In this document: piece by piece, positions 17,015 through 32,539 of the stretch
How the letters are laid out: every line of letters begins with the position of its first letter
How positions within the stretch are numbered: the stretch's first letter is position 1
DNA from: Paraburkholderia phenazinium
Lineage (GTDB): Bacteria > Pseudomonadota > Gammaproteobacteria > Burkholderiales > Burkholderiaceae
Assembly: GCF_900141745.1 (NCBI RefSeq)
Contig: NZ_FSRM01000002.1
Coordinates: 1-64,000, forward strand
DNA: 64,000 nt
Direction of reading: 5' to 3'
Program-made: the position numbers and the translations under genes
The notes under the pieces: generated by a model
What the model was told of the DNA's origin: nothing
Seen by the model: the letters and a program-made list of their open reading frames with translations, nothing else
Database searches by the model: none

Positions 17015-17085
17015 CGTCATGCTCCTGAGTTATATGAGTAAGGCTATCGATCAGCCAGGTAGTACAAGATGTCTACATCGAATCG

Positions 17086-17814
17086 TCAATGCGTACGCAG
17101 ATCGGACAGGAATCGCTGCGCACGCGCATGCTGCGGGCGTGAAAAGAACTCTTCGGGCGGCGCCGTCTCCAGAATCTTGCCGGCATCCATGAACCAGACC
17201 CGGTCGGCCACTTCGCGCGCGAAACCCATCTCGTGGGTGACGCACATCATCGTCATGCCTTCCTGGGCCAGACTCTTCATTACGTTCAGGACTTCACCCA
17301 CCATCTCCGGGTCGAGCGCGCTGGTCGGTTCGTCGAACAGCATCGCAGGAGGGTCCATTGCCAGCGCACGGGCAATCGCCACGCGCTGCTGCTGGCCCCC
17401 CGAGAGTTGCGGCGGATAGGCGCTCGCCTTGTTGGACAGTCCCACGCGTGCCAGAAGATCGGCCGCCTTACGCTCGGCGTTCGCGCGCTTCAGACCGTTT
17501 ACACGCATCGGCGAGAGCGTGATGTTCTCCAGCACCGACAGATGCGGAAACAGGTTGAACTGCTGAAACACGAAGCCGATGCGGCTTCGATAAGCATTCA
17601 GACTGAGCTTCCGGTCGTGAATATTCTGGCCATCGAACGAAATCTGTCCGCGATCGATTTCCTCGAGCCGGTTGACCGTGCGAATCAGCGTCGATTTGCC
17701 GGAGCCGGACGGTCCGCACACGACGACCACTTCGCCCTTGCGAACCTCGGCGTTCACATCCACGAGTGCGTGATATTCGCCGTACCATTTGTTGACGCTG
17801 GAAAACTTGATCAT
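17086..17814 (-). CDS. Amino-acid-type ABC transporter ATP-binding protein (GlnQ/GltL-like)
   Basis: ATPase of 242 residues that powers the polar amino acid-type importer. It has Walker [11 protein letters not shown]-loop [10 protein letters not shown], signature [15 protein letters not shown], Walker [14 protein letters not shown] and the switch histidine in VTHEMGFA. Length and sequence are typical of the family. It is preceded by GGAATT and lies 25 bp behind the permease gene, ahead of the binding protein. Confidence 0.92.
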
Positions 17815-17839
17815 GCGAATTCCTTGGATAGTGGGACGC

Positions 17840-18595
17840 CTAGTTCTCGCTAGGCAGCGGATCAGGCAGAGAGGCCAAGGCCACCTTGCTGTTCCTCGCA
17901 GCCGAACCCGCCCGCTTCTTCGTCACGCGGCGCTCCAGATGGCGCGCGAAGCGCGTCAGCGCATAACACAGCACGAAGTAGCTCAGCGCGAGAATCAGAT
18001 ACACGGAGAACGGTTTCGTCAGCAGCCGGTTGTTGATCTGGTCGGCCGCGAACGAGATTTCCTGGACGTTGATGATGTAGCCGAGCGAAGTTTCCTTCAC
18101 CGTCGAAACGAACTGAGTGACCATGCTTGGCAGTACGTTATAAAGCGCCTGCGGCAGGATGATCGCGCGCATCGTCCCCAGGTAGCTCATGCCGAGCGCG
18201 CGCGACGCTTCGACCTGGCCTTTCGGAAGCGCCTCGATACCGGCCCGGATGATTTCGCCCAGATACGCCGAGTCGTAGACCACCAGGGCGCACAGCATCG
18301 TCACGAAGCCCGTGACCGGATAGCCGGTCAGCACGGGCACGAGAAAGTACACCCAGAAGATCACCATCAACAACGGGATGCCGCGCACCATATAGACCAG
18401 GCCCGTAGCCGGCGCACGCAGAAGCGGGAACGGACTGATCCGCGCAAGCGCCACGAGGATGCCCAGCGGAAAGGCAATGACGAGAGCCGACAGCGACAGC
18501 AGTATCGTCAGGACGATGCCGCCCAGCGGGCCATGCGGATACTGCCCGATCAGCAGCAGCGTCCAGTTGTCGCGCAGGATCTGCAACATGATCAC
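17840..18595 (-). CDS. Amino-acid-type ABC transporter permease (GltK/HisM-like)
   Basis: Inner-membrane permease of 251 residues with about five hydrophobic helices. It carries the coupling loop that contacts the ATPase ([23 protein letters not shown]). The frame starts with GTG at 18595, overlapping the stop of the previous permease by 4 bp (GTGA) with GGAG just upstream, so translation is coupled. An ATG two codons later is an alternative. The C-terminus is long and basic ([12 protein letters not shown]). Confidence 0.9.
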
Positions 18596-19293
18596 TTCAC
18601 TCCCGGAATGCGGTAGTGCGTCGCGAGCTTCGCTCCCGCCAGCATGATGACGAGCGAGATCGTGAGGTAGACCACCGTCGCGACAAAATACGACTCGAAG
18701 GAGAGGAACGTTTCGTTTTCAATCTGCCGGGTGACGTAGGTCAGCTCGGCCGCTCCGATTGCCATCGCAAGACTCGTGTTCTTGAACAGCAGGACGGCGT
18801 GGTTGACCATCGGCGGAATGGCATTGCGAAGGGCCTGGGGCAGAACGACGTAGCGCAGGCCGCTGACAAAATTCAGGCCCAACGCGCGCGAGGCTTCGTA
18901 CTGGCCATAAGGAATGGCACGCAGGCCGCTGCGAATATCTTCGGAGAGGTAAGCCGCGCTGCACAGGCCGATCGCAATCACGGCAAACACGAACTGGCCG
19001 TTGTACTGGTTCAGCAGATCCTGCAAACCTTGCGGCAAGACATTCGAAATGCCGAAGTACCAGAACAGGATCTGGACCAGCATCGGCACATTGCGGTGGT
19101 AGGCCACGAACGCTGACACGAAGGCAGTCGCGGCACGATTGTTGGTCAGGCGGATCAACGTCAGCAGAATCCCCACCACCAGCGAAAGAAGCCACGCCAA
19201 TACGGCCATCGCGAGTGTGAGTTCGACACCGTGCAGGAAGAGCGCGCCGTAGTCGCCTTGCAGCACCGTCGCCAGGTCAAAATGAAGTTTCAT
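18592..19293 (-). CDS. Amino-acid-type ABC transporter permease (GltJ/HisQ-like)
   Basis: Partner inner-membrane permease, 233 residues, about five helices, with the EAA-type loop EASRALGLNFVSGLRYVVLPQAL. It is the first gene of the four-gene transporter operon (permease, permease, ATPase, binding protein). A possible weak promoter with a LysR box lies about 110-170 bp upstream. GGGG precedes the ATG by about 8 bp. Confidence 0.9.
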   Translation of the reverse strand: MKLHFDLATVLQGDYGALFLHGVELTLAMAVLAWLLSLVVGILLTLIRLTNNRAATAFVSAFVAYHRNVPMLVQILFWYFGISNVLPQGLQDLLNQYNGQFVFAVIAIGLCSAAYLSEDIRSGLRAIPYGQYEASRALGLNFVSGLRYVVLPQALRNAIPPMVNHAVLLFKNTSLAMAIGAAELTYVTRQIENETFLSFESYFVATVVYLTISLVIMLAGAKLATHYRIPGVK

Positions 19294-19640
19294 ATTGCAC
19301 GCCCCAATGATTCGGATCGGACCGATGTTCGCTGCATTGCATGATCAGCAGTCACATCGTCTTTGAAAGCGGAAATGCCGTCTGCTCCCACGTTGAATTC
19401 ATACTAGCTCGCGAAAATAGACCCTTGCAGAGGCCTTTCTTCTGGCGCAATAAGTTTCGCGAATGATGCGGGTGACGACCGGCGGACAACCTGATGGACC
19501 GGGCTTTGCATGACTTTTGTCTCCATGACAGGGGGCGTTTCCAGCCACCCTGCTTTTTTAAGCGCGCTTTTGCGTCGAGGCAAAAGCGCGTAACACTCAA
19601 ACGCGCAGGCCAGTGCCGCCTGTGTCGCGTTACGGCACGC
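19294..19640. other. Intergenic region with weak LysR box and hairpin
   Basis: ATAAG-N5-CGAAT at 19450-19464 has the T-N11-A form of the Nac-like boxes in this window. It lies upstream of a poor minus-strand promoter (-10 TAGTAT at 19401-19406). A perfect 11-bp inverted repeat, CGCGCTTTTGC / GCAAAAGCGCG, lies at 19563-19590 behind the GhrB-like gene. No run of T follows it on the transcribed strand, so terminator function is doubtful. No gene is seen. Confidence 0.45.
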
Positions 19641-20651
19641 TCAGACGGTGGCCGCCGCGTGCGTCAGCACTTGCGGATTGATCGGGGTGGGCGGCTTGCC
19701 CGGCGTATTACCCAGTCCGAGTGCGGCGATCAGATTGTCTACACAAAGCGCCGCCATGGCCCGCCGGGTGGCGACCGAGGCACTGCCGATATGCGGCGTC
19801 AGAACCACATTGCTCAACTCGAGCAGTGCGGGATTCAGCGCCGGCTCGCCCTCGAAGACATCAAGGCCTGCCGCTGCGATGCTGCCCTCGGCCAACGCAA
19901 CCGCCAGCGCGGCATCGTCGACCACGCCACCGCGTGCGATATTGGTCAGCGTCGCCGACGACTTCATCTGCTTGAGCTGCGCCGCGCCGATAGCGTGATG
20001 CGAACTCGCCGAATACGGCACGACGATGATCAGGTGATCGGATTCGCGCAGCAGCGTGTCCTTGTCGACGTAACGCGCCTGGCAACTTGCCTCGACTTCA
20101 GGCGCGAGCGGCGAGCGGTTGTGATAGATCACCTGCATGCCGAAACCCAGGGCGCCGCGTCGCGCGATGGCCTGGCCGATACGGCCCATGCCGAGAATCC
20201 CCAGGGTCGCGCCGTGCACATCGCCGCCGACGAACATTTCGTAACGCCCCGTCTTGATCCATTCGCCGCGGCGCAGAAAGCGCTCCGACTCCGTGATGCG
20301 CCGCGCGGCTGCCATCATCAGCGCGAAGCCGAAGTCGGCGGTCGTGCCGGTGAGGACGTCCGGCGTGTTCGTGACCAGTACGCCACGCGCCGTACAAGCG
20401 TCTACGTCGACGTTGTTGTAACCCACGCCGATATTGCAGACGGCGCGCAACTGCGGACAGGCGTCGAGCAGGGTGACGTCGATCCGGTCGCTGCCCGCCG
20501 TCACCGCGGCCGTTTTGCCTTGCAGGTGCGCGATGAGTTCGGGTTGGGTCCAGACGGTGTCATCAGGGTTATCGGTCACATCAAAATGCACCCGCAGACG
20601 ATCAACGATGTCGGGAAACGACGCACGGGTAACGAGGACCGATGCTCGCAT
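19641..20651 (-). CDS. D-2-hydroxyacid dehydrogenase (GhrB / 2-ketogluconate reductase-like)
   Basis: NAD(P)H-dependent reductase of 2-keto acids, 336 residues. It has the nucleotide motif LGILGMGRIGQAIARR, the catalytic Arg in NIARGGVVDD, the Glu in DVFEGEP and the His in LTPHIGSA. Family members act on glyoxylate, hydroxypyruvate and 2-keto- or 2,5-diketogluconate. The IdnO- and IdnD-like genes nearby favour a sugar acid. It follows the SDR gene by 57 bp on the same strand and is likely expressed from the Nac-type promoter at 21532-21594. AAGGAG precedes the ATG. Confidence 0.87.
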   Translation of the reverse strand: MRASVLVTRASFPDIVDRLRVHFDVTDNPDDTVWTQPELIAHLQGKTAAVTAGSDRIDVTLLDACPQLRAVCNIGVGYNNVDVDACTARGVLVTNTPDVLTGTTADFGFALMMAAARRITESERFLRRGEWIKTGRYEMFVGGDVHGATLGILGMGRIGQAIARRGALGFGMQVIYHNRSPLAPEVEASCQARYVDKDTLLRESDHLIIVVPYSASSHHAIGAAQLKQMKSSATLTNIARGGVVDDAALAVALAEGSIAAAGLDVFEGEPALNPALLELSNVVLTPHIGSASVATRRAMAALCVDNLIAALGLGNTPGKPPTPINPQVLTHAAATV

Positions 20652-20708: not shown

Positions 20709-21467
20709 TCAATCTGCGTGATCAACAGGCTCACGCTTGATCGTCGTCAGGCCGCCGGGCACCTGCAGCGTCGGCAAAATTTCCATGTTGCTGATGTTGA
20801 CGGCCAGCGGCGCGGCGATCGCGAACGCAATCGCGTCGGCGATATCGGACGGGAGCGGCAATTCGAAGCCGTCGATGAACTTCTTGCGTGCTTCTTCGAT
20901 ATCGCCATGCACGTGGCCAAAGATATCGGTCGCAACGCGGCCTGGACAGATCTCGGTGATACGCACCCGCTTGCCAGTGGCATCCACCCGCAACTGACGC
21001 GACAGCGCATGAATACCCGCCTTGGTCGCGTGATAGATCGAGTTGCCGTTGAAGTTGTAGATGGCCGCAATCGAGCTGATGTTGACGATATGACCGCGGT
21101 CGCGCGCCACCATGCCCGGCATGGTGAGACGCACAATGTGCAGCACTGCTTGCAGGTTCACTTCCACCTGCACGTCGATGTCTTCGACATTCGCATCCAG
21201 AATCGAGCCTTTGCGCGACACGCCGGCATTGTTCACGACGATATCGAACGGCACTTCTTGCGTCAGCTTCGTCACGGCAGGCAGATCGGAGACGTCGATC
21301 GCATGCGGAATGCACCCGGTGCGCTCGGCCAGTTCATTCAGACGATCCGCGTTGCGTGCAAGCGCATGAACCTCGAGTCCTTCCCGGCAAAAGCGCTCGA
21401 CGATTGCCGCACCCATTCCGGTAGAAGCACCAGTCACCAGCGCGGTTTTATAGTCTGAAAACGGCAT
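20709..21467 (-). CDS. SDR family oxidoreductase (YdfG / serine 3-dehydrogenase-like)
   Basis: Short-chain dehydrogenase of 252 residues. Motifs are TGASTGMGAAIV, NNAGVSRKGS, the catalytic SSIAAIY region and YHATKAG, and the PGRVATDIFG segment. Closest in feel to YdfG-type 3-hydroxy acid or serine dehydrogenases, but substrate is uncertain. It is the first gene behind the promoter at 21532-21594, with ribosome site GAGGTAAT. The 3-hydroxyacid specificity would fit with the hydroxyacid dehydrogenase that follows. Confidence 0.85.
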   Translation of the reverse strand: MPFSDYKTALVTGASTGMGAAIVERFCREGLEVHALARNADRLNELAERTGCIPHAIDVSDLPAVTKLTQEVPFDIVVNNAGVSRKGSILDANVEDIDVQVEVNLQAVLHIVRLTMPGMVARDRGHIVNISSIAAIYNFNGNSIYHATKAGIHALSRQLRVDATGKRVRITEICPGRVATDIFGHVHGDIEEARKKFIDGFELPLPSDIADAIAFAIAAPLAVNISNMEILPTLQVPGGLTTIKREPVDHAD

Positions 21468-21531
21468 GAATTACCTCTATTTGTGGTTCTGAATCTATCG
21501 CGGTTCGAATGACGGCAACCTTGAGATTCAA

Positions 21532-21594
21532 TGTATACGGCGTGAAAACCGCACGCCAAGACGAAATGGATTTGTAGGGATAAGTCGACCTTAT
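21532..21594 (-). promoter_or_regulatory. Nac-type LysR-controlled promoter of the SDR-ghrB operon
   Basis: Read on the minus strand: box ATAAG-GTCGA-CTTAT (21580-21594, T-N11-A), 20 bp, -35 TTGGCG (21554-21559), 16 bp, -10 TATACA (21532-21537). The box centre falls near -65 of the expected start of transcription, the standard LysR activation position. The 67-bp block 21529-21595 matches 26617-26683 at about 49 positions with no gaps. Confidence 0.82.
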
Positions 21595-21621
21595 GACGCG
21601 CCAGATCGGCTTGCGCACTGT

Positions 21622-22389
21622 TCAGCGCACCAGCTTCGATACCGGCACGACCCGTCCACCCGCCGCTTCGATTCCCGCGCGCACCGTGCGTGCGAGTTCG
21701 ACGGCGCCTGGCGTATCGCCGTGCAACAGAATCGACTGCACTGCGACCTTGAGCTTGCCGCCCGTGACCGTCGTAATCGTCCCGTCTTCAAGCAGTTCCT
21801 TGACGCGCGCAAGCACCGCGGCGCGATCCTTGATCACGGCGCCTTCCAGCTTGCGCGAGACGAGCGCGCCCTGATCGTCGTAAGCGCGATCGGCGAGGAA
21901 AGTGTTGGCCGTGCGGATGCCTACCTTGTCGGCGGCACGCTCGATTTCCGTGTTGGTCGAGACGCTGATGATGAGGTCACGATCGAACTCGGCCACCGCC
22001 CGCACCAGCGGCTCGGCCAGTTCGTACGACGCAGCAGCCATGTTGCCGAGCGCACCGTGAAAGCTCATGTGCGTGACGCGGTGCCCCGCAGCCTTCGCGA
22101 TCCCGGCCAATGCCCCCATCTGATAGAGCACGTACTTGGCCAGTTCCAGCGGATCGGCCTGAATCTGCCGCCGGCCGAAGCCCAGCAGATCGGGAAAGCC
22201 GACATGCGCGCCAATCTCGATCTGCCGCGCGAGTGCCATGCGGACCGTCTTGTCCATGATGACCGGATCGCCTGCATGGTAGCCGCAGGCCACGTTGGCG
22301 GACGAGACGATATCGAGCATCGCTTCATCCTCGCCCATGGTGTACGGGCCGAAGCCTTCGCCGAGGTCGGCGTTCAGGTCGATTTCCAC
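21622..22389 (-). CDS. pxpA: 5-oxoprolinase subunit A, LamB/YcsF family
   Basis: 255 residues. In E. coli and Bacillus, PxpA with PxpB and PxpC cleaves 5-oxoproline to glutamate using ATP. The N-terminal signature DLNADLGEGFGPYTMGEDE and NVACGYHAGDP are visible, as are HGALGNMA and GDTPGAV. The start is GTG at 22389 with GGAGAG 6 bp upstream. It is the last gene of the operon that runs accB, accC, pxpB, pxpC, degenerate BCCP, pxpA. The unusual biotin partners raise the possibility that the ring substrate is not simple 5-oxoproline. Confidence 0.88.
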   Translation of the reverse strand: MEIDLNADLGEGFGPYTMGEDEAMLDIVSSANVACGYHAGDPVIMDKTVRMALARQIEIGAHVGFPDLLGFGRRQIQADPLELAKYVLYQMGALAGIAKAAGHRVTHMSFHGALGNMAAASYELAEPLVRAVAEFDRDLIISVSTNTEIERAADKVGIRTANTFLADRAYDDQGALVSRKLEGAVIKDRAAVLARVKELLEDGTITTVTGGKLKVAVQSILLHGDTPGAVELARTVRAGIEAAGGRVVPVSKLVR

Positions 22390-22423
22390 TCTTCACTCTC
22401 CATTGTCTGATCCCGATTTACCC

Positions 22424-22888
22424 CTATGCCGAAGCTGCCAGCACGAACAACGGCGTTCCGTAACCCACCTTATCGCCGTGCGTCGCAAGTACCCGCAGGA
22501 CACGACCGTCGATCGGCGCGAGAACTGGCACGCACAACTGAGCAATCTGCAGCAGGCCGACAATATCGCCCCGCAAGACGTGATCATCGACGCTCACGAA
22601 CGGCGTGGTGCGCGCCGGATGCGCGACCAGAAAAATCCCCACCGAACTGGCCGTCACCGTAGTCACCTGCTTCTGCGCACCTTCCAGCACATGGGCCGCT
22701 GCAGCGGTACCTCCGCCCGGCACCGCCGGCAGCGGCGATTCGTGCGAGGCACCGCGCTGCTGCGCCTCTGCGGTTAGCCGAATAGTCGTTCCAGGCCTGC
22801 TGATCTCGACGAATTCGATATCGACCTCAGTCAGCCACGAGGTGATCTGCCGAAGTTCGCTGACCTGTACTTCGATTTTCTGTGTCAT
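22424..22888 (-). CDS. Biotin carboxyl carrier-like protein lacking the biotinyl lysine
   Basis: 154 residues. The first 45 or so residues and the C-terminal domain (about 80-154) resemble AccB: TPFVSVDDHVLRGD and GDKVGYGTPLFVL align to the biotinyl fold. At the biotinylation site, where AccB reads EAMK(L/M)M, this protein reads QIAQLC, with Gln117 in place of lysine. It therefore cannot carry biotin in the usual way and may be structural or regulatory. It lies between pxpC and pxpA, 3 bp behind pxpC. An intact BCCP is encoded in the same operon at 26079. Confidence 0.82.
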   Translation of the reverse strand: MTQKIEVQVSELRQITSWLTEVDIEFVEISRPGTTIRLTAEAQQRGASHESPLPAVPGGGTAAAAHVLEGAQKQVTTVTASSVGIFLVAHPARTTPFVSVDDHVLRGDIVGLLQIAQLCVPVLAPIDGRVLRVLATHGDKVGYGTPLFVLAASA

Positions 22889-22891
22889 GTT

Positions 22892-23899
22892 TCAGTGTCT
22901 GGACCCGCGAAAAAGGTCGACCAGGTTGCGAACCTTGGCGAGATAGCGCTCCACGTCTTCGAGTGCGGCCACCGCTTCAGGATAGGTGGTCTGCACAAAA
23001 CGGAGCTTCGTTCCGATGCGAGCCTGCGCGAGCCGCCACAGGTCTGCCTCGATAACGGTGCCGATCTTCGGGTAACCGCCCGACGGCTGCGCGTCGCGCA
23101 ACTGGATGATCGGCTGGCCGTTGTGGGGCACCTGAATCACGCCGGGCACGATGCCGTGCGAGCGCTTTTCGATTACACGCACCGCGCTCAACGTCGGACC
23201 TGCAAGGCGGTAGCCGTAGCGGTCGCTCTGCGGCGTCACCTTCCATCCTTCGCTCCAGAACGCAGCGAGCGATTCCGGCTGGTAGCAGTCGTATTCGGCG
23301 GCGGGCAGCACACGCACCACCGTTTCGGTCGCCTCGGCCTCAGGGACGGCCAGCGGACGGGGTATCGAAAACTCAGGCGGCACGGTGCCGAACCCGGCTT
23401 CGCGGGCCAGCTCATATAGCGGCGCAGCCTGCTCGAGGCCGACAGCCTGCACCACATCGCCTTTCTGCAACTGGCGCCCGTTGTAGCCGCCGAACTGCCC
23501 GCGCAACTGCGTGCTGCGCGAACCGAGCACGACAGGCACGTCGACACCCCCTGCGAGCGACAGATAGCAGCGCGTGCCGCTTGCCGGTACGCCGATCGTC
23601 AGGACGTCGCCTTTGCTTGCCTGCGCGGTCCACCAGGGGAGCACCGAACGCTCGCCCAGACGCGCGGCGCAATCGGCGCCGGTGATCGCGAAAGCGGTGT
23701 CTTCAAGGAAGCGAATGCGGAACGGAAACATCGGAATTTCGATGCCCGCCGCGTCCTCGGGATTGCCGAGCAGGAGGTTGCCGACCGAGAGTGCCAACCG
23801 GTCCATCGCGCCGGCCGTGCCGACACCGTAGCGCAGATAACCCTCACGCCCCTGGTCCTGCACCGTGGCAAGTGCTGAGGAAGACAGGATCTCGATCAT
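22892..23899 (-). CDS. pxpC: 5-oxoprolinase subunit C (carboxyltransferase-like, KipA/AHS2 family)
   Basis: 335 residues. Family marks are the N-terminal TVQDQGREGYLRYGVGTAGAMD, GNPEDAAGIEI and, later, SDRYGYRLAGP and GVIQVPHNGQPI. AHS2 domains also form half of the carboxyltransferase part of urea carboxylase. The start overlaps the pxpB stop by 4 bp (ATGA), so the two subunits are translated together. With the AccBC-like genes in the same operon, a biotin-dependent carboxylation is possible. Confidence 0.9.
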   Translation of the reverse strand: MIEILSSSALATVQDQGREGYLRYGVGTAGAMDRLALSVGNLLLGNPEDAAGIEIPMFPFRIRFLEDTAFAITGADCAARLGERSVLPWWTAQASKGDVLTIGVPASGTRCYLSLAGGVDVPVVLGSRSTQLRGQFGGYNGRQLQKGDVVQAVGLEQAAPLYELAREAGFGTVPPEFSIPRPLAVPEAEATETVVRVLPAAEYDCYQPESLAAFWSEGWKVTPQSDRYGYRLAGPTLSAVRVIEKRSHGIVPGVIQVPHNGQPIIQLRDAQPSGGYPKIGTVIEADLWRLAQARIGTKLRFVQTTYPEAVAALEDVERYLAKVRNLVDLFRGSRH

Positions 23900-24654
23900 G
23901 AGACGATCCTCTCGACGCGAAAACGAATCATGTCACCGGGTGCCAGGGTAGCCGGATTGTCGCGCATCGGATCGAAGAAGGACATCGAGGTATGGCCGAT
24001 GGTGTTCCAACCGCTGGGCCCTGTGGAGGCCGAAACGCCCGTCTGCACGCCGCCGATCGACACAGCGCCCCCTGGCAGGCCAAGCACGGGCACCTTGCGG
24101 CGCGGAGTGGCAATACGCGGATCCATGCCGCCGAGGTAGCAGTAGCCTGGGTGGCTGCCGAGTGCGAAGACGGTATAGAGCGGCGCGCAATGCAACTGCA
24201 CGACCTCATCCACGGACAAGCCGGTGTGGGCCACCACGTCGTGCAGATGCGGCCCGAACTCGCCACCGTATTCCACCGGCAGCTCCACCACTTTGCCTTC
24301 AATCTGCAGTTCGCCCGCCGCGGCCCACGCGTCGCGCAAAGCGGCGTCGAGCGAGCCCGGATCGGCAGGCGGCGTGGAGAACGTCAGCATCAGATTGGTC
24401 ACGCCCGGCACCGCCTCACGCACACCCGGCCACGATTCGACCTCGCGCGCCAGCGTCCAGATGCGGCGTTGCGCACGCAGATCGAGCGCGCCGGGCGCTT
24501 CGAAGAGCATCGCCGTCGTGCCCAGCATGCTGATGCAAAGCGGAGGGTCCGAATCGTCCTGTTTCATCGCGTGGGCGGTCCTTTCTGAATCCAGTCGCAT
24601 CTGTCCGGCCGTGCCGGCGTACGCGATCGATGCATGTTCGATGATGCACGTCAT
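23896..24654 (-). CDS. pxpB: 5-oxoprolinase subunit B (KipI/AHS1 family)
   Basis: 252 residues from the ATG at 24654. This start overlaps the accC stop by 4 bp; a start further upstream is possible but would lie inside accC. Family motifs include the [13 protein letters not shown] segment, [30 protein letters not shown] and GPSGWNTIG. The first 40 residues are poorly conserved, so a later start cannot be excluded. AHS1 forms the other half of the carboxyltransferase-like pair with PxpC. Confidence 0.88.
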
Positions 24655-26003
24655 GTCGGTTTCCTGTTTGCAAGCCAGCGTTCCAGATGGTGAATATCGA
24701 CGCCGCCCGCACAAAAACCCTCGTCTTCAAGTATGGCCTGATGCAACTGCACATTAGTACGAATGCCTTCGATGCGCATCTCCGAGAGTGCGAGACGCAT
24801 GCGCACCAGGGCTTCCTCGCGGCTCGCGCCGTAGGTGATGAGCTTGCCGATCAGCGAGTCGTAATACGGCGGCACCACGACGCCGCTGCTCATGTGCGAA
24901 TCGATCCGCACGCCGTTTCCTCCCGGCAATTCCCACGCTGTGATCTTGCCGGGACACGGCAAGAAAGTGAAAGGGTCCTCGGCGTTGATACGGCATTCGA
25001 GCGAATGGCCATTGGTGCGGATGTCCGATTGCCGGATCGTCAGCGCATGGCCTTGCGCAATGCGAATCTGTTCCTTGACGATGTCGATGCTGGAGGTCAT
25101 CTCTGTCACCGGATGTTCGACCTGCAGGCGCGTGTTCATTTCGATGAAGTAAAACTCGCCGTTCTCGAACAGGAATTCGAACGTGCCCGCGCCGCGGTAG
25201 CGGGTCTGCCGGCATGCCTCCACGCAGCGCTCGCCGACCTGCCTGATCAGCCCCGGATCGATGCCTGGCGCCGGTGCTTCTTCCAGTACCTTCTGATGAC
25301 GCCGCTGCAGCGAACAGTCACGCGAACCGAGCCACAGCGCATTGCCATGGGTGTCGCACAGGACCTGAATCTCGACGTGGCGCGGATGCTCGAGAAACTT
25401 CTCGACGTACAGTTCGGGCTTGCCGAAAGCGCGGCGCGCTTCCTCGCGCGTCACCGAGACCGCTTCCAGCAACTGCCCGGCACTCTGCACCACCCGCATC
25501 CCGCGCCCGCCGCCGCCCCCGGCCGCCTTGACGATAACGGGAAAGCCGATCGCTTCGGCTACCTTAAGGATCGCTGCGGGATCATCGGGCAAGCCGCCGT
25601 CCGGGCCCGGAACGCAGGGCACACCGGCTGCGCGCATGGCGCGCTTGGCCGCGACCTTGTCGCCCATCGTCCGGATGGAGCGCGGTTCCGGACCGATGAA
25701 ACTCAGCCCTGCCGCTTCGACTTCTTCGGCGAAGTCGGCGTTTTCCGAAAGAAAGCCGTAGCCGGGATGAACGGCCTGCGCACCGCTGACATGCGCGGCA
25801 AACAGGATCGCGCCACGGTTCAGATAGCTTTGCCCGGGCGCGGCGGGACCGATGCACAACGCCTCGTCGGCCAGCCGCACGTAGCGTGCGTCCGCATCGG
25901 CTTCCGAATAGATCGCGACCGTCTTGAGCCCCAGCTCACGGCACGCCCGTTGGATTCGGAGTGCGATCTCGCCGCGGTTGGCAATCAATACCTTGTTAAA
26001 CAT
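24651..26003 (-). CDS. accC: Biotin carboxylase (AccC-like)
   Basis: ATP-dependent carboxylation of biotin on a carrier protein; 450 residues. Typical motifs are [26 protein letters not shown], the glycine-rich [12 protein letters not shown], the HIE-type [24 protein letters not shown] and [15 protein letters not shown] with catalytic residues. I chose the ATG at 26003, the family start. As a partner of PxpBC rather than AccAD, it is probably a second, catabolic biotin carboxylase and not the essential fatty-acid enzyme, in parallel with urea carboxylase-type systems. It lies between accB and pxpB. Confidence 0.92.
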
Positions 26004-26078
26004 CGTCGCCCGACCGGAAGAAATGGCACGTCGCCACAACGGAGCGGCAATTCATCGATGGATTCGTACGCATGGCCA

Positions 26079-26546
26079 TCATCTGATTCGAAACAGCGGC
26101 TGGCCGGCTTCCACCTCGTCACCCGGCCTGACGAGAATCTCGACGACGTTGCCCTTGAACTCGGATTCGATCGCGTTGAACATCTTCATCGCTTCGATCG
26201 TGCAGAGCGCCTGCCCTTCTTCAACGGCATCGCCTACGCCTACGAAGGGTGGCTCCCCGGGAGCCGGCGTCAGATGAACGATGCCGAACATCGGGGCGCA
26301 GACCAGCTGGGGCTCGCTCGCCGTGGCATCCACTGTGGTCGAAGCGGCGACGGGTGGGACGGCCTGCCCCGCTTCCTCGGCGGGGGTCGAACGCGCGGAG
26401 CGAGGGATGTCCTCGCTCGCATCGGACGTCGCGCGCCGATGTGTTTTGACAAGCCGAATCTTCTCGTCGCCCTCGATCAGTTCGAGTTCGGCAAGCCGCG
26501 ATTCGGCCAGCAGGTCAATGAGACCCTTAATCTTCTGAAGATCCAT
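26079..26546 (-). CDS. accB: Biotin carboxyl carrier protein (AccB-like)
   Basis: 155 residues from the ATG at 26546. It has the usual N-terminal segment, an Ala/Pro/Thr-rich linker (about 38-80) and a biotinyl domain with the intact site EAMKM, Lys121 carrying biotin. It is the first gene of the accBC-pxpBC-BCCP-like-pxpA operon, starting about 67 bp downstream of the expected transcription start of the Nac-type promoter at 26620-26682. The separate pathway context suggests a role distinct from fatty-acid synthesis. Confidence 0.92.
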   Translation of the reverse strand: MDLQKIKGLIDLLAESRLAELELIEGDEKIRLVKTHRRATSDASEDIPRSARSTPAEEAGQAVPPVAASTTVDATASEPQLVCAPMFGIVHLTPAPGEPPFVGVGDAVEEGQALCTIEAMKMFNAIESEFKGNVVEILVRPGDEVEAGQPLFRIR

Positions 26547-26619
26547 TTCTGAGTCCGTGGCCTGGTTAAGGCTAGTCGGTCCGGCTCCACTCAAGCTGGA
26601 CGATCTACGCTGGACTCAA

Positions 26620-26682
26620 TGTATCTGGCGCATAAAAAATGCGCCAAGACGGTTTGGGTTTGTAGCGATAAGGCGCGCTTAT
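26620..26682 (-). promoter_or_regulatory. Nac-type LysR-controlled promoter of accBC-pxp operon
   Basis: On the minus strand: box ATAAG-CGCGC-CTTAT (26668-26682), 20 bp, -35 TTGGCG (26642-26647), 16 bp, -10 GATACA (26620-26625). The box overlaps the stop codon of the nac-like gene. A further palindrome, TGGCGCAT/ATGCGCCA with a 5-A loop (26626-26646), spans the -35/-10 spacer. Confidence 0.82.
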
Positions 26683-27605
26683 GTATCGGCGCCGGCCTCC
26701 GAACGCACGTCGAGCGCAAGGTCACCCGCCAGTTCCAGCAGGATGTCCTTGACGGCCGCGGCGGGCTCGGAAAGGGGAAGATGGTCCGACAGGCAGACCG
26801 AGAGGGGGATCTTGATGACCGGCGAAACGATGCGGCACTGGACGATATCGCCCGCCGCCGCGACGACCCGCGCGGTGGAGTCCGGCAGGATCGTGGCGCC
26901 GATGCCGGCGCCCACGGCGGCCGAAAGCGTCGACGCCGATTCGATCTCGGCCACCACCTTGGGGATCATCTGGACACGCGCGAAGCCTTCGTCCACGTAC
27001 TTGCGCAGATAGTTATAGGGCCGCGGCAGCAGCAAGGGCACATCGCGCAGGGCCGTCACGTTGATCTGCTCCTGCGTGATGCCCATGCTGCGTGGCGCGA
27101 CGAGGAACAGCTCCTCGTTCATCAGAAGCTGGAACGACAGGCCGTGGACCGGCTTGTCGCCATAGAGGACGGCCATGTCCATCCGCCCGTTCATGATCAG
27201 CTCGCTAAGCGTGGTACCGAAGTTTTCGTTGATATACAGAAGGATGTCCGGATGGCGGGCGCGCACCGTGCGCAACAACGGCAAGGACAGGGCCGACGCC
27301 CCCGTGCCCGGCGCGAGACCCACGGACACCTGGCCTGACAAGGTTTGCCCGGCGCTCTTCACGTCCGCCTGCGCCTGCTCATACTGCCGCAGGATCAGCT
27401 GCGCGTGACGGTAAAGGGTGGCGCCCGCTTCGGTCGGCGTCACGCCGCGCTTCGTGCGCACCAGCAGTTGCTGCTGAAACTCGTCTTCGAGCGTGATCAG
27501 TTGCTGGCTCAGCGCGGGCTGGGCGATATGCAGCACTTCGGACGCCTGGGTCAGGCTGCCGATATCGACAATCTTCACGAAGTACTTCAAACGCCGCAGG
27601 TTCAC
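26679..27605 (-). CDS. nac: LysR-type regulator, homologue of nitrogen assimilation control protein Nac
   Basis: DNA-binding transcription regulator of 308 residues. The N-terminal helix-turn-helix (MNLRRLKYFVKIVD, SLTQASEVLHIAQPALSQQ) and following LVRTKRGVTPTEAG are almost those of Klebsiella Nac; GQVSVGLAPGTGAS and the substrate-like domain also follow it. Nac sites have the form ATA-N9-TAT, which is the form of the five boxes found in this window. The start is GTG at 27605. It lies upstream of accB on the same strand and divergent from the aminotransferase gene. It is the obvious candidate regulator of this region; whether it answers to nitrogen status or to a pathway compound is open. 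Confidence 0.87.
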   Translation of the reverse strand: MNLRRLKYFVKIVDIGSLTQASEVLHIAQPALSQQLITLEDEFQQQLLVRTKRGVTPTEAGATLYRHAQLILRQYEQAQADVKSAGQTLSGQVSVGLAPGTGASALSLPLLRTVRARHPDILLYINENFGTTLSELIMNGRMDMAVLYGDKPVHGLSFQLLMNEELFLVAPRSMGITQEQINVTALRDVPLLLPRPYNYLRKYVDEGFARVQMIPKVVAEIESASTLSAAVGAGIGATILPDSTARVVAAAGDIVQCRIVSPVIKIPLSVCLSDHLPLSEPAAAVKDILLELAGDLALDVRSEAGADT

Positions 27606-27789
27606 GCTGATTGCATCCGTGGTCGGTTAAGGGATTGCAGCAATCATAGGGCAAGCGCTGTTCGACGCACAGCCCTCAAAAAACCCGTGTGCCGACGACG
27701 CGACAGATGTGGCGCATTGCCCCCGGCAGCAGCGATTGCGGGAAGTACTAATTGCTGCGATGCGTGTGCAGTGCGCAGCTCGTCCCGTC

Positions 27790-27852
27790 ATAAGTGGATG
27801 TTATTACGCCAGCGGAAAGACATCTTAGCGACATCTTTTCTGCGCGCTTACT
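27790..27852 (+). promoter_or_regulatory. Nac-type LysR-controlled promoter of the aminotransferase gene
   Basis: Box ATAAG-TGGAT-GTTAT (27790-27804), 20 bp, -35 TTAGCG (27825-27830), 16 bp, -10 CTTACT (27847-27852). The GTG start is 36 bp further on. The box is also 185 bp upstream of the divergent nac-like gene, so it could serve in autoregulation. Confidence 0.75.
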
Positions 27853-27888
27853 GTTAGGCCTCATTAAACCCCCATCCAGGAGTCCAGT

Positions 27889-29097
27889 GTGAGTGCATCG
27901 CGCATCGCCGCCCGTGTCCAGCGCATCAAGCCGTCGCCTAGCAGTGCCGCGGCGGATCGTGCCGCCGAACTGCGGCGTCAGGGCAAAACGATCGTCAATC
28001 TGGTCGTTGGCGAACCCGACTTCGATACGCCCGAACATATCCGTCGTGCCGCATTCGAAGCGATGGAGCGCGGTGAAACACGCTATACACAAACCGCGGG
28101 CACGCCTGCACTGCGCGCCGCTATCGCCGACAAGCTCAAGCGCGAGAACGGGCTTTCGTATGATCCGAAGCACATCATCGTCACGTGCGGCGCCAAGCAC
28201 GCGATCTTCAACGCCCTCGCCATCACCGTCGAAGAAGGCGATGAAGTGCTGATTCCCGCGCCTTACTGGGTGTCTTACCCGGACATGGCGCTGGCCTGTG
28301 ACGGCGTACCCGTAGTAGTGCCATGCACCGAGGACGATGGTTTCAAGCTGACGCCTGCGACCCTCGAAGCCGCGATCACCCCACGTACACGCTGGCTGAT
28401 CATCAATTCGCCGACCAATCCGACCGGCGCGACCTATACGGCCGGCGAGCTGCGCGCACTGGCCGACGTGCTGCTGCGTCATCCACGTGTGCTCGTCATG
28501 CTGGACGATATCTACGAGCACATTCGCTTCGACGGCGAGGCGCTTCAGCATCTGCTCTCAGTCGAGCCTCTGTTGATGGACCGGACCCTGGTGGTCAACG
28601 GCGTGTCCAAAACCTACGCGATGACCGGCTGGCGTATCGGCTATGCAGCCGGTCCGGCCGACCTAATCGGCGCCATGGACACGCTCCAGTCCCAATCGAC
28701 CAGCAACGCGAGCTCGATCAGCCAGGCTGCCGCGCTTGCCGCGCTGACCGGCGACCAAAGCTTCGTCACCCGTTCGGTGCGTGTCTATCGCGAACGGCGC
28801 GACCACGCGCTGGCAGCACTCAATGCAATCCCGGGCATCAGTTGCCGCACGCCGGGTGGCGCTTTCTATCTGTATGTGAATTGCGGCGGCATGATCGGCC
28901 GCACCACCCCGCAGGGAAAACGCCTCGAAGGCGACGCCGATGCCGTGCTCTACCTGCTCGAACACGCAGGGGTTGCGCTGGTAGCGGGCTCGGCCTATGG
29001 GGTCTCCCCCTTCTTCCGGATGTCGATCGCCACCAGCGTCGAAACCATCGACGAAGGCTGCAAAAAGATCGCGGCGGCCGTAGCTGCCTTGGATTGA
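27889..29097 (+). CDS. Class I pyridoxal-phosphate aminotransferase (aspartate aminotransferase-like)
   Basis: 402 residues. Family motifs are LVVGEPDFDTPEH, TQTAGTPALRAAIADKL, PYWVSYPDM, INSPTNPTGATYT, the Asp-Tyr region LDDIYEHIRFDG, and the lysine motif NGVSKTYAMTGWRIGYAAGP that binds the cofactor. The start is GTG at 27889 with AGGAG 6 bp upstream. Substrate specificity is unclear; members act on aspartate, alanine or aromatic amino acids. A Nac-type promoter and a nac-like neighbour suggest that it supplies or removes the amino group in the same pathway as the pxp and sugar-acid genes. Confidence 0.9.
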   Translation: MSASRIAARVQRIKPSPSSAAADRAAELRRQGKTIVNLVVGEPDFDTPEHIRRAAFEAMERGETRYTQTAGTPALRAAIADKLKRENGLSYDPKHIIVTCGAKHAIFNALAITVEEGDEVLIPAPYWVSYPDMALACDGVPVVVPCTEDDGFKLTPATLEAAITPRTRWLIINSPTNPTGATYTAGELRALADVLLRHPRVLVMLDDIYEHIRFDGEALQHLLSVEPLLMDRTLVVNGVSKTYAMTGWRIGYAAGPADLIGAMDTLQSQSTSNASSISQAAALAALTGDQSFVTRSVRVYRERRDHALAALNAIPGISCRTPGGAFYLYVNCGGMIGRTTPQGKRLEGDADAVLYLLEHAGVALVAGSAYGVSPFFRMSIATSVETIDEGCKKIAAAVAALD

Positions 29098-29104
29098 GGG
29101 CAAA

Positions 29105-29132
29105 AATGCGGCGCGAAATATCGCGCCGCATT
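29105..29132. terminator. Intrinsic terminator behind the aminotransferase gene
   Basis: A perfect 12-bp inverted repeat, AATGCGGCGCGA / TCGCGCCGCATT with loop AATA, starts 7 bp after the stop codon and is followed by TTCT-like sequence. Confidence 0.75.
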
Positions 29133-29216
29133 CTCAGATAAAGACATGCCGCACTGTCTGGATGCGGCAGTTGAACTGTAATTTCCGTTTTCTTCAAACT
29201 GCAAGGGGATCTTCTC

Positions 29217-30329
29217 GTGAAAAAGAATACATTAGGTGTACTGATTGGAGTTGGATTGGCAGTATCTGGAACCGCGTATGCGCAGTCGAGCGTCACGCTG
29301 TACGGCATCATTGATGAAGCGGTGCGTTACGACAATCATCAGACGAAGACCGGCAGCGGCAGTCTTTTCACGATGGGCAGCGGCGGCGAAATTCAAGGTA
29401 GCCGCTGGGGCTTGCAGGGAACGGAAGATCTCGGTGGCGGCATGGCCGCAATCTTCCAGTTGGAAGGCGGCTTTACGCCGAACACCGGTGCGACGCAGCA
29501 ATCGGAGCCGAATGGCACGGCGCGTCTGTTCGGCCGCACGGCTCTCGTCGGGCTCACCACCAACTACGGCACGATCACAGCGGGCCGCCAGTACACGCTG
29601 GTCCACGAAATGGGCTGGACGCACGACATCTATGCGTTCGCCAATTACACCGGCACGGTCGGCTTCCAGGGAGCGGGCGAAACCGGCGGCGGACGTCTGG
29701 ACAACTCGGTGCGATACACGTCGCCGACTATTGCCGGCATTACCGCTAAGGGTTCCTATACATTCGGCCAGACCGCCGGCAATTTCCATCAGTATTCGTC
29801 GCCCGCATTCGCTCTTTCGTACGACAACGGTCCGTTGAGCGTCGGGGCGGCCTATCAGGTGATCAACGACATTGGCGGCCTGACGCCGGCCACGACCGAG
29901 TACGGCAGCACCTACTTTGGCCTCACGATTCCGGACAGCTCGCAAAAGGTCTTCACGGCCGGCGCAACGTACAAGTTCGGTTCGGCCAAAGTCTTTGCCT
30001 CATACATCTTCAGCCACGTCTATCCGGCGGACTACCGTAACGACTCGTTCTCCACAGCTCTTCAGTACTACATCACACCGGCCTTCGTTCTCGACCTGCC
30101 GCTCTATGTCGACTTCGTTCACCACGCCGGCGAGAGCGGTACGCGCATTACCGGTGGCCCGACGTTCGATTACTTCCTGAGCAAGAGCACGGACATCTAT
30201 ATCGGCGCCGACTACAACCATCTGACCGGCGCATGGGTCACGCTGGCTGCGGCTTCGGGTTCCAACCAACCGTTCTACGGCCATAACTCGCTGTTCGAGG
30301 CGGATATCGGCCTGCGTCACAAGTTCTAA
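29217..30329 (+). CDS. Gram-negative porin (Porin_4 type), second copy
   Basis: 370-residue outer-membrane porin. A signal peptide ends at AYA-Q (about residue 22), followed by SSVTLYGIIDEAV, GSRWGLQGTEDLGGGM and a C-terminal strand ending in Phe (DIGLRHKF). The start is GTG at 29217 with AAGGGGA 7 bp upstream. It lies between the aminotransferase and the idnD-like gene, each followed by a terminator-like hairpin, so it is probably transcribed alone. It is likely the outer-membrane entry pore for the substrate of this region. It clearly differs from the porin at 1208 in the loops. Confidence 0.94.
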   Translation: MKKNTLGVLIGVGLAVSGTAYAQSSVTLYGIIDEAVRYDNHQTKTGSGSLFTMGSGGEIQGSRWGLQGTEDLGGGMAAIFQLEGGFTPNTGATQQSEPNGTARLFGRTALVGLTTNYGTITAGRQYTLVHEMGWTHDIYAFANYTGTVGFQGAGETGGGRLDNSVRYTSPTIAGITAKGSYTFGQTAGNFHQYSSPAFALSYDNGPLSVGAAYQVINDIGGLTPATTEYGSTYFGLTIPDSSQKVFTAGATYKFGSAKVFASYIFSHVYPADYRNDSFSTALQYYITPAFVLDLPLYVDFVHHAGESGTRITGGPTFDYFLSKSTDIYIGADYNHLTGAWVTLAAASGSNQPFYGHNSLFEADIGLRHKF

Positions 30330-30345
30330 AACCTACTGAACCAGA

Positions 30346-30379
30346 GGTCTGCTTCGCGCCTCGTCAGCCGAAGCAGACC
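30346..30379. terminator. Hairpin behind the porin gene
   Basis: A perfect 11-bp inverted repeat, GGTCTGCTTCG / CGAAGCAGACC with a 12-nt loop, starts 16 bp after the stop codon. No T-run follows. Confidence 0.6.
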
Positions 30380-30400
30380 CGGCATCGCAAATCAACAACC

Positions 30401-30463
30401 ATAAGCTGTGCCGATTGGCCCAGACAAAATCGCTCTTGGTCGCTTGCATCGCACAGGCCTAAG
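30401..30463 (+). promoter_or_regulatory. Nac-type LysR-controlled promoter of idnD-like gene
   Basis: Box ATAAG-CTGTG-CCGAT (30401-30415, T-N11-A kept), 20 bp, -35 TTGGTC (30436-30441), 16 bp, weak -10 region around CCTAAG (30458-30463). The ATG lies 54 bp downstream. The second half-site is less well conserved than in the other copies. Confidence 0.68.
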
Positions 30464-30517
30464 GTATAGGTTGATCATTCACCCGAATCTCCCGATTCGC
30501 TGACCGAGACCTTTTCC

Positions 30518-31555
30518 ATGCACGCACTCGTCATTCACGCCCCGCTGGACTTACGCATCGAGGACGTTCCGACTCCCGAACCCGACGCTGACCAGCTGCT
30601 CATACGCGTTCGAGCTGGCGGCATCTGCGGTTCCGATCTGCATTACTTCAATCACGGCGGCTTCGGTACCGTGCGCATCAAGGAGCCAATGGTGCTCGGC
30701 CACGAGGTGTCGGGCGTCGTAGCCCGTACGGGTTCGGCCGTCACCGATATGCCGGTTGGCACACGCATCTCGATCAGCCCGAGCCGGCCGTGTGGACTCT
30801 GCCAATACTGTCAGCAAGGCCTGCAGAACCATTGCCTGGATATGCGCTACTACGGCAGCGCAATGCGCACGCCGCATGTGCAAGGCGCGTTCCGCCAGGA
30901 AATCGTCATCGATCGCTCACAGGCTCATGTCGTTGCAGACACCCTGACTGACGAAGAAGCCGCGATGGCAGAACCGCTGTCCGTCGCACTGCACGCGGTG
31001 CGCCGCGCAGGACCGTTGCTCGGCAAGCGCGTGCTCGTTACGGGATGTGGACCGATTGGCGCGTTGATCGTAGCGGCTGCCCGCCGCGCGGGCGCAGCGC
31101 ACATTGTTGCGACCGATGTGAGCCCGCTGCCGCTGCAAAGCGCACTCCAGGTTGGCGCAGATGTCGCGCTCAACGTCGCCGAGCAAGCCGACGCTCTTGT
31201 GCCCTTCTCGGCCAACAAGGGTAGCTTCGATGTCCTGTTCGAGGCAAGCGGAAACGCCGCTGCATTGCGCAGCGCGTTCGACGTGCTGCGTCCGCGCGGC
31301 ATTGTTGTTCAGGTTGGTCTTGGCGGTGGTGAAGTCAGCTTGCCGATGAACGTGGTTGTCGCCAAGGAATTCGAATTGCGCGGGGCATTTCGCTTTCACG
31401 AAGAGTTCGCGGTAGCAGTGGAGCTGCTGAACAAAGGCCTGATCGACGTCAAGCCGCTGATCTCCGGCGTGTTTTCGTATCGGGATTCGATCGCGGCATT
31501 TAAAGCCGCTGGCGACCGGTCGAAATCGATGAAGGTGCTGGTCAATTTCGAATGA
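30518..31555 (+). CDS. idnD: L-idonate 5-dehydrogenase-like zinc alcohol dehydrogenase (IdnD-like)
   Basis: 345 residues; oxidises the 5-hydroxyl of L-idonate or a similar sugar acid. It has the catalytic zinc site GGICGSDLHYFNHGG and GHEV, the structural zinc cysteines in PSRPCGLCQYCQQGLQNHC and the NAD motif VTGCGPIGALIVAAARRAG. DMRYYGSAMRTPHVQGAF and VQVGLGGGEVSLPMN match E. coli IdnD. Its product would be the substrate of the IdnO-like reductase encoded at 15304. It has its own Nac-type promoter and ends in a convergent hairpin. Confidence 0.88.
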   Translation: MHALVIHAPLDLRIEDVPTPEPDADQLLIRVRAGGICGSDLHYFNHGGFGTVRIKEPMVLGHEVSGVVARTGSAVTDMPVGTRISISPSRPCGLCQYCQQGLQNHCLDMRYYGSAMRTPHVQGAFRQEIVIDRSQAHVVADTLTDEEAAMAEPLSVALHAVRRAGPLLGKRVLVTGCGPIGALIVAAARRAGAAHIVATDVSPLPLQSALQVGADVALNVAEQADALVPFSANKGSFDVLFEASGNAAALRSAFDVLRPRGIVVQVGLGGGEVSLPMNVVVAKEFELRGAFRFHEEFAVAVELLNKGLIDVKPLISGVFSYRDSIAAFKAAGDRSKSMKVLVNFE

Positions 31556-31580
31556 TGTTTTGTTGCCAGTAGTTGGATCG

Positions 31581-31610
31581 CGACGGTTAGCGTGTGAGGC
31601 ATAACCGTCG
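31581..31610. terminator. Convergent hairpin between idnD-like and rraA-like genes
   Basis: A perfect 9-bp inverted repeat, CGACGGTTA / TAACCGTCG with a 12-nt loop, lies between two convergent stop codons. Confidence 0.55.
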
Positions 31611-31643
31611 CAAACAACTCAAAGCCTGCCCAAACTTCGGGCC

Positions 31644-32312
31644 TTAGTTATTGCAGCGCGCTTCCAGCGCGTCAATGAACGCCCGGTCCCAACGCCCTTC
31701 TCTCATCGCACGCATCGTTTCGGCCTCCGCTTCCAGCACGGCGAGCGCCTTCTCGATGACAAACCCGGCGTCTTCCTGAGGGATGGCCAGCAAGCCATCC
31801 TGATCGCCGACGACAATGTCGCCCGGGTTAACGACCATGCCGCCCACACATACCGGCACATTGATCTCGCCCGGACCGTCCTTATACGGTCCGCGGTGTG
31901 TGACACCGCGCGCATAGACCGGAAAATCCCGCTCACGAATCTCTGCGACATCGCGGATCGCGCCGTCGATCACTACGCCCGAGAGACCGATCGTGGCAGC
32001 GTAAAACGTCAAGATGCCACCGACAACCGCGTTGTTGAGGTCGCCGCCGGCATCGACCACCAGCACGTCGCCTGGGCGGCAAAACTCGAGCGCACGCAGA
32101 TAGGTCAGGTTATCGCCGCCGCGCGAACGCACCGTGACCGCTGTGCCGGCCATCGTCTTCTTCCCGGGGCGCTGGTAAGGATGCAGTCCCGCACTGCCGG
32201 TGTTGCGATGCATGTTGTCGCTAAGCGCGGAGACCGGAATGTCGCGCAACGCGTTCAGAGTGCTGACTTCGGCCTGAGCAGCCGAGGGGTTCTTGCGGAT
32301 GGCTTTGTACAT
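31644..32312 (-). CDS. RraA-like protein / 4-hydroxy-2-oxo acid aldolase family
   Basis: 222 residues from the ATG at 32312. The family core has ALSDNMHR, the GDNLTYLRALEFCRPGDVLVVDAGGDLNNAVVGG segment, the GVVIDGAIRDVAEI motif and NPGDIVVGDQDGLLAIP. Characterised relatives are 4-hydroxy-4-methyl-2-oxoglutarate/4-carboxy-4-hydroxy-2-oxoadipate aldolases as well as RraA, the RNase E inhibitor. The Asp/Arg residues of the aldolase site (DGAIRD) are present, and catabolic neighbours favour an aldolase or decarboxylase role. The Nac-type promoter lies about 60 bp upstream. A much longer upstream frame is not supported. Confidence 0.82.
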   Translation of the reverse strand: MYKAIRKNPSAAQAEVSTLNALRDIPVSALSDNMHRNTGSAGLHPYQRPGKKTMAGTAVTVRSRGGDNLTYLRALEFCRPGDVLVVDAGGDLNNAVVGGILTFYAATIGLSGVVIDGAIRDVAEIRERDFPVYARGVTHRGPYKDGPGEINVPVCVGGMVVNPGDIVVGDQDGLLAIPQEDAGFVIEKALAVLEAEAETMRAMREGRWDRAFIDALEARCNN

Positions 32313-32370
32313 AGTCGATGTTCGTGTCGGGAATAGAGGGAACAGCTTGACGCTGTCACGCACTCGTAAC

Positions 32371-32433
32371 GGTATGCTCGCCACCGCGGGCACGCCAAGA
32401 TGAAATCGGTCTGCCGCAATACCGAACACTTAT
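32371..32433 (-). promoter_or_regulatory. Nac-type LysR-controlled promoter of rraA-like gene
   Basis: On the minus strand: box ATAAG-TGTTC-GGTAT (32419-32433), 20 bp, -35 TTGGCG (32393-32398), 16 bp, -10 CATACC (32371-32376). GCACGCCAAGA next to the -35 is shared with the promoter at 21532. Confidence 0.78.
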
Positions 32434-32517: not shown

Positions 32518-32539
32518 CCCTTGGAGGCGACCCATCAAC

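Follow-up and report, generated by a model that had tools for sequence, protein, structure and literature searches.

Positions 1 to 64,000 of contig NZ_FSRM01000002.1 of Paraburkholderia phenazinium (assembly GCF_900141745.1), hereafter the window, carry five promoters of nearly identical build beside a gene for a LysR-type protein resembling Nac, the enteric nitrogen assimilation regulator. The locus raises the question of whether one regulator controls these promoters and, if so, whether it is a global Nac or a regulator of the gene cluster in which it lies. Based on the comparisons described here, the five promoter blocks and a degenerate sixth very probably serve as operators for the LysR-type product of the gene at 26679-27605, acting as activator of its own cluster, and the family to which this protein belongs is the likely source of enteric Nac.

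Each block consists of a 15-bp box, a 20-bp gap, a −35 hexamer, 16 bp and a −10 hexamer; all boxes, gaps and −35 hexamers were recovered at the coordinates and on the strands first assigned to them. On the plus strand, box A (ATAAGTGGATGTTAT, 27790..27804; block 27790-27852) lies before the aminotransferase gene, inside the gap separating it from the divergent regulator gene, and is followed by TTAGCG and CTTACT, while box B (ATAAGCTGTGCCGAT, 30401..30415; block 30401-30463), the weakest of the five, precedes an idnD-like gene and is followed by TTGGTC and CCTAAG. On the minus strand, box C (ATAAGCGCGCCTTAT, 26668..26682; block 26620-26682) precedes accB, box D (ATAAGGTCGACTTAT, 21580..21594; block 21532-21594) precedes a short-chain dehydrogenase (SDR) gene and ghrB, and box E (ATAAGTGTTCGGTAT, 32419..32433; block 32371-32433) precedes a gene for an RraA-like protein; all three have TTGGCG as −35 hexamer, with GATACA, TATACA and CATACC, respectively, as −10 hexamer. 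Boxes C and D are perfect palindromes of the form ATAAG-N5-CTTAT, whose arms are matched at 9/10 positions by A and at 8/10 by both E and B, and the 67-bp blocks ending at 26682 and 21594 are identical at 49/67 positions, as the initial annotation had stated. Its assignment of the boxes to the Nac-type site ATA-N9-TAT holds for four of the five, but box B reads ATA-N9-GAT. A hexamer is present 16 bp after every −35, although those of A and B are poor −10 sequences.

The regulator gene terminates at the TAA contained in the ATAAG of box C, so that operator and coding sequence overlap; this coincidence recurs in 37 of 80 loci scanned. Inverted repeats, TGGCGCAT-N5-ATGCGCCA and GGCGTG-N7-CACGCC, are found between the −35 and −10 hexamers of blocks C and D (26626-26646 and 21539-21557), where they are a possible second operator.

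The blocks are highly specific to this locus. The pattern ATAAG-N8-AT-N18-TCTT-N-G has exactly five matches in the 8.32-Mb genome, which are the five boxes, and its reversed control has none in this genome and one across the 16 genomes searched; the observation is therefore far beyond chance, and a regulon defined by the box together with the −35 does not extend outside the cluster, where all five matches fall. A looser pattern, ATA-N9-TAT-N20-TTNGNS, occurs at 16 places in the same genome (reversed control, 2), four within the cluster and 12 elsewhere, and thus ATA-N9-TAT by itself is not diagnostic of Nac. None of the seven other boxes listed up to C2:2431018 (the palindromes C2:388561 and C2:1598981 and five matching at 9/10) has a −35 part. 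The searches for the block cover the complete genome; weaker sites lacking the −35 part could exist beyond them. Six of the 16 loose matches (L001, L003, L004, L010, L011 and L016), located elsewhere in the genome, combine ATA-N9-TAT and a 20-bp gap with TTGGAC and perhaps represent another class of LysR promoters with the same geometry.

The proposal that a single regulator serves all five transcripts is upheld in so far as the leading candidate for that role is the LysR protein of the NAC family. A scattered or nitrogen-wide regulon is not: instead of lying before many unrelated nitrogen genes, the block is found at five places in one cluster, and the regulator gene has no sigma-54 core (see below). 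The protein thus looks like a cluster-bound activator of genes for the uptake and breakdown of an amino acid or amide rather than a global nitrogen regulator.

Blocks and regulator gene also occur together across genomes. Within the genus, 7 of 39 genomes have a protein above the NAC cut-off, and each of these seven carries two copies of a strict form of the block, compared with one copy in one of the 32 genomes lacking such a protein; the reversed control gave no match in any of 55 genomes. The pattern ATAAG-N8-AT-N18-TCTT-N-G, looser than the strict form, is found in all seven NAC genomes (4-5 matches each, 32 in total) and in 0/9 genomes without NAC. One of the 32 matches, on another contig (G007), looks like chance, and one, also on another contig (G019), is a rraA-type block. 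Blocks before many unrelated genes with no nac-like gene had been named beforehand as the finding that would speak against this regulator, and in the genus sample the blocks go with the gene (7/7 versus 1/32). The search also covered 12 enteric genomes carrying a NAC-family gene. Two of these (G260 and G414) have a cluster-linked copy and two blocks each; the block is missing from the other ten, where no such copy was found. One of four α-proteobacterial genomes has one block.

Conservation of the layout was evaluated in 80 loci (L077-L156), the best of 121 that contain a relative of the LysR gene; the counts take in genes for which 150 bp or more of upstream sequence was available and boxes matching at least 8/10 within 320 bp. 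Members of Burkholderiaceae, Pseudomonas, Enterobacterales and other groups share the layout, and nearly all 80 loci are linked to accB, accC, pxpB, pxpC, pxpA, SDR, ABC transporter and aminotransferase genes, with the proviso that some loci end early and some lineages lack members, for instance accB and accC in most Enterobacterales by this test. A box is present upstream of accB in 65/65 cases, always at 10/10, and upstream of the SDR gene in 68/73, the aminotransferase gene (AAT) in 59/71, idnD in 16/24 and rraA in 16/21. For other genes of the same clusters the counts are 0/26 (ghrB), 2/56 (binding protein), 4/67 (first ABC permease) and 5/24 (porin); three of the four permease boxes correspond to the half-site of the sixth box discussed below, and four of the five porin boxes are AAT-type blocks in Caballeronia. 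The five SDR genes without a box (L089, L092, L093, L094 and L096) lie at most about 100 bp from pxpA, as expected of genes that have joined the pxpA operon. In the Caballeronia loci among them (L092, L093, L094 and L096), the SDR gene directly follows pxpA, an AAT-type block lies about 310-320 bp before the porin gene, and no AAT gene was found.

The conserved part extends beyond the box. A TC-TT signature at offset 33 from the box accompanies 65/65 accB, 68/68 SDR, 50/59 AAT, 15/16 idnD and 14/16 rraA boxes, and the 20-bp gap contains 22.7-29.6 bits across the five promoter classes, reading CA(A/C)A plus CCA in the accB and SDR classes and CCAGA or CAGA in the AAT, idnD and rraA classes, and ending in (C)GTC. 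The gap, exemplified by CGCTACAAACCCAAACCGTC in block C (26648..26667, minus strand), is probably a second LysR half-operator, proposed to serve activation. Estimated visually from the positions of CAnA and TCTT, its centre is separated from the box centre by about 21 bp, which corresponds to two helical turns.

Several observations weigh against this interpretation. Blocks A and B end in weak −10 hexamers, and the −10 register before AAT differs in Pseudomonas, where eight AAT promoters read CGTACTGT, one base out from CTTACTGT in the window; over all AAT relatives the −10 columns hold only 3.8 bits. Box B was not seen in the four relatives looked at (L077, L078, L157 and L086), of which L077 is P. 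phenazinium LMG 2247, a strain with the same cluster, and no box of at least 8/10 is present in 12/71 AAT, 8/24 idnD and 5/21 rraA upstream regions. Of random 330-bp windows from the same loci, 374/4800 reach 8/10, a count that includes overlaps with true boxes, and conservation among close relatives partly reflects shared descent. Finally, one genus genome without a NAC gene above the cut-off (G008) still carries the SDR box; its cluster (L181) is decayed, with regulator and accB not found and accC broken.

The regulator itself (minus strand, 308 aa) scores 457.8 bits against the NAC equivalog model NF008410 (cut-off 309) and contains the HTH_1 and LysR_substrate domains. Its predicted structure (mean pLDDT 86.3) has the fold of LysR-type transcriptional regulators (LTTRs), with CbnR giving the best Foldseek E-value and OxyR and CysB TM-scores of about 0.75. 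In the trees and group table it shares with E. coli Nac a clade that is separate from the other LysR proteins. The resemblance to Nac noted at the outset is thus borne out: the protein is 51% identical to E. coli Nac (b1988) over 301 residues. This similarity is unevenly distributed, with 51/60 identical residues in the DNA-binding head (1-60) and 86/206 in the sensor domain; for the cluster-linked relatives L144, L140, L151, L101 and L153 the corresponding values are 49-54/60 and 115-144/208, and the heads of two α-proteobacterial copies match at 35/60 and 33/60. With positions shared by at least 90% of the 85 cluster-linked proteins taken as conserved (the long α row L178 and L147 left out), the head contains 45, of which one is changed in the 12 enteric Nac proteins; outside it, 20/106 conserved positions are changed, including N126, S134, R141, H154, F158, N198 and C271. 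Enteric Nac may have lost the inducer pocket. Two loci, L141 (Brenneria roseae) and L123 (Pseudomonas sp. T1-3-2), contain a second NAC-family gene or part of one.

Nac of Klebsiella and E. coli binds ATA-N9-TAT, the type to which the window boxes belong, about 64 bp before the start at hutU, and is active without a coeffector. The protein could be a true Nac, that is, an NtrC- and sigma-54-driven global regulator of whose regulon the five promoters form the local part. The NAC model and the nearly identical head agree with this view, as does the wiring of many relatives. A sigma-54 core, defined as TGG(C/T)-N7-TTGC in the 250 bp preceding the regulator gene, is present in 36/38 loci of the Pseudomonas group, 9/9 Enterobacterales, 2/4 Comamonadaceae and 1/1 Oxalobacteraceae, at all 12 enteric nac genes, that of E. 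coli among them, and at both enteric cluster copies (L174 and L180); random 250-bp stretches contain it in 119/3900, 12/900 and 16/2300 cases for Pseudomonas, Enterobacterales and Burkholderiaceae, respectively. NtrC-like dyads (at least 10 of 12) accompany the core in 16/38 Pseudomonas-group and 6/9 Enterobacterales loci. NtrC control is the hallmark of Nac wiring, and the chain from NtrC through a LysR protein to sigma-70 promoters is known for Nac (available text of PMC6299236).

On the other hand, the core was found within 250 bp upstream in 0/23 Burkholderiaceae, 0/2 Hyphomicrobiales and 0/1 Lysobacterales loci and at none of the four α copies (0/4), and the 400 bp upstream of the window gene contain no strict core, only a GG-less relic, TCGAACAGCGCTTGC, at 60 bp. 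Judged by sequence, the regulator gene thus has no NtrC-activated sigma-54 promoter. The available text of a Paraburkholderia sigma-54 study (PMC5979394) does not contain the word nac. Moreover, the block is confined to the cluster, apart from such weaker sites as may exist, and absent from the ten enteric genomes in which only a Nac outside a cluster was found. Together, these data make a true Nac an improbable reading. Compared with Nac, the window protein sits in the catabolic cluster that it is proposed to control, would act at five or six promoters only, lacks a sigma-54 core at its gene and has a sensor domain of different conservation pattern.

The alternative of a cluster activator from which Nac descended is addressed by the trees, in which groups were set by gene neighbourhood beforehand. 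Enteric Nac forms one clade inside the cluster-linked family in both trees, joined to the Enterobacterales cluster copies (support 100/99) and then to those of Pseudomonas (97/89). From the first tree, L121, the partial second copy in L123, the genus loci L157-L162 and lysR2 were left out, and 110 rows were thinned to 74. The arrangement in which all cluster-linked copies form one clade had an approximately unbiased (AU) p of 0.053 (0.0528; five long rows removed, 69 left, no tree drawn) with one outgroup set and of 0.006 (0.0059; thinned ingroup, 55 rows) with another, and appeared in 0% of 200 bootstrap trees with either. The rooting is good but not final, because long branches were flagged and the outgroups are distant: the class and order samples contained no sequence scoring from about 250 bits up to the cut-off of 309, and those of the second set are at 34-41% identity. 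Cluster copies occur in α-, β- and γ-proteobacteria, and neighbourhood agrees with the trees. Enteric nac adjoins cbl in E. coli and in all ten loci L164-L173; E. coli, L175 (where cbl was not found) and five of these ten short loci also contain a tRNA-Asn. One genome, G414, combines the two types, L169 being its nac-cbl copy and L180 its cluster copy.

This suggests that enteric Nac is a derived, globalised branch and the cluster-bound arrangement ancestral, so that the reading as a Nac-like regulon probably has the direction of descent reversed. With the core present at cluster-linked copies in Pseudomonas and Enterobacterales, the NtrC-to-LysR-to-sigma-70 chain seems to predate enteric Nac; the sigma-54 promoter was either lost in Burkholderiaceae or gained elsewhere. 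We consider the following course of events reasonably likely. Enteric Nac would have arisen from a cluster-bound activator in which the head and operator type (and, in γ- and some β-proteobacteria, the sigma-54/NtrC promoter) already existed; the sensor then changed, and the gene took its place beside cbl and tRNA-Asn and became global, while cluster copies persisted, those of Burkholderiaceae without a sigma-54 core and responding to inducer alone. No published account of the origin of Nac or of this regulon was found in a search whose coverage of subscription papers was poor.

The regulon is compact, its regulator, operators and proposed members being packed into about 16 kb. If the above account is correct, it is likely the ancestral state of Nac, and makes testable both how a pathway-specific LysR protein becomes a global regulator and which sensor-domain changes freed Nac of its coeffector. 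Labels of 'nitrogen assimilation regulator NAC' in Burkholderiaceae, Pseudomonas and others would probably denote a pathway regulator, and in genomes with both copies, such as G414, global Nac is predicted to cross-talk with the cluster.

As for the mechanism at the cluster, a tetramer is envisaged in which one dimer would occupy the high-affinity box ATAAG-N5-CTTAT and the other the weaker conserved site CA(A/G/C)A...CGTC about 21 bp downstream, abutting the −35. An inducer, probably a substrate, intermediate or product of the cluster, would allow RNA polymerase to be positioned at the sub-optimal sigma-70 promoters, switching on the ABC transporter, the porin, a biotin-dependent carboxylase/PxpABC-type system opening an amide or lactam, the transaminase and the dehydrogenases; from the divergent box A the regulator may also repress its own gene. 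The T-N11-A site near −65 is textbook LTTR geometry (available text of PMC4834489), and the sequence and spacing of the boxes fit it, with −65 being a matter of geometry only. The classical activators CbnR, BenM/CatM and ThnR resemble the present system in the T-N11-A palindrome, here predicted to lie near −65, the divergent regulator gene and the fold; they differ from the present system in its five to six operators per cluster, fixed offset to the −35 and sequence-conserved second site.

A second LysR gene (32540-33451) is divergent from the RraA-like gene, and a LysR gene divergent from its target is the usual arrangement (available text of PMC4834489), which could make box E, and others, its own. 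It encodes a BsrA/LeuO-like, not NAC-like, protein that had no match at E up to 1e-20 over half its length in the 86 related loci scanned, some of which end near rraA, and the box before rraA is kept in 16/21 upstream regions nonetheless; we consequently rejected this gene as owner of box E, and its ownership of the boxes is very unlikely. That the blocks are copies of a constitutive sigma-70 promoter, spread by duplication without a dedicated regulator, would account for the 49/67 identity of blocks C and D and is the least probable reading of all, as the arms of accB and SDR boxes stay palindromic while their centre varies in α-, β- and γ-proteobacteria and genomes without the regulator gene lack the blocks (0/9).

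Downstream of box C on the minus strand follow accB-like (26079..26546, biotin carboxyl carrier, above the TIGR00531 cut-off), accC-like (24651..26003, biotin carboxylase), pxpB-like (23896..24714, carboxyltransferase subdomain C/D, PF02682; reading frame as scanned, true start probably further in) and pxpC-like (22892..23899, subdomain A/B, PF02626) genes, a second biotin/lipoyl carrier gene (22424..22888, PF00364) and a pxpA-like gene (21622..22389, LamB/YcsF, above the NF003814 cut-off). Next, also on the minus strand, are the SDR gene (20709..21467), the ghrB-like 2-hydroxyacid dehydrogenase gene (19641..20651, below the equivalog cut-off) and an amino-acid type ABC transporter of two permeases, ATPase and binding protein (16166..19293; PF00528 twice, PF00005, PF00497). 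The plus strand encodes the aminotransferase (27889..29097, PRK06107 aspartate transaminase family, above the NF004769 cut-off), the porin (29217..30329) and the idnD-like zinc alcohol dehydrogenase (30518..31555, below the equivalog cut-off), followed on the minus strand by the RraA-like protein (31644..32312, scanned as 31644-32318; PRK06201 subfamily). The ABC transporter, biotin carboxylase with PxpBC domains and PxpA, transaminase and dehydrogenases suggest that a cyclic amide or a comparable nitrogen compound is scavenged; a literature search for the pathway substrate turned up nothing resembling this cluster. Rfam gave no match over 15000-34000. In an Enterobacteriaceae locus (L189, 10978-11448), a short reading frame, carrier-like by appearance only, occupies the place of accB after the regulator, with a box in front.

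A weaker sixth box had been suggested at 19450-19464 for the ABC transporter. Box F (19450..19464, block 19402-19464) fits the block better on the minus strand, and a plus-strand reading was rejected. Read from 19464, it is ATTCGCGAAACTTAT-tgcgccagaagaaaggcctc-TGCAAG, with geometry and gap signature as in the other five, and CTTAT, CAGA and TC are kept in register in 19/20 Burkholderiaceae and Oxalobacteraceae regions upstream of that permease; its distal arm and −35, however, are degenerate, and it may therefore be a weaker member of the set. Before the ABC permease of four Caballeronia loci there are also sigma-54 cores, which are T-rich, do not occur in the other 16 loci compared and were set aside.

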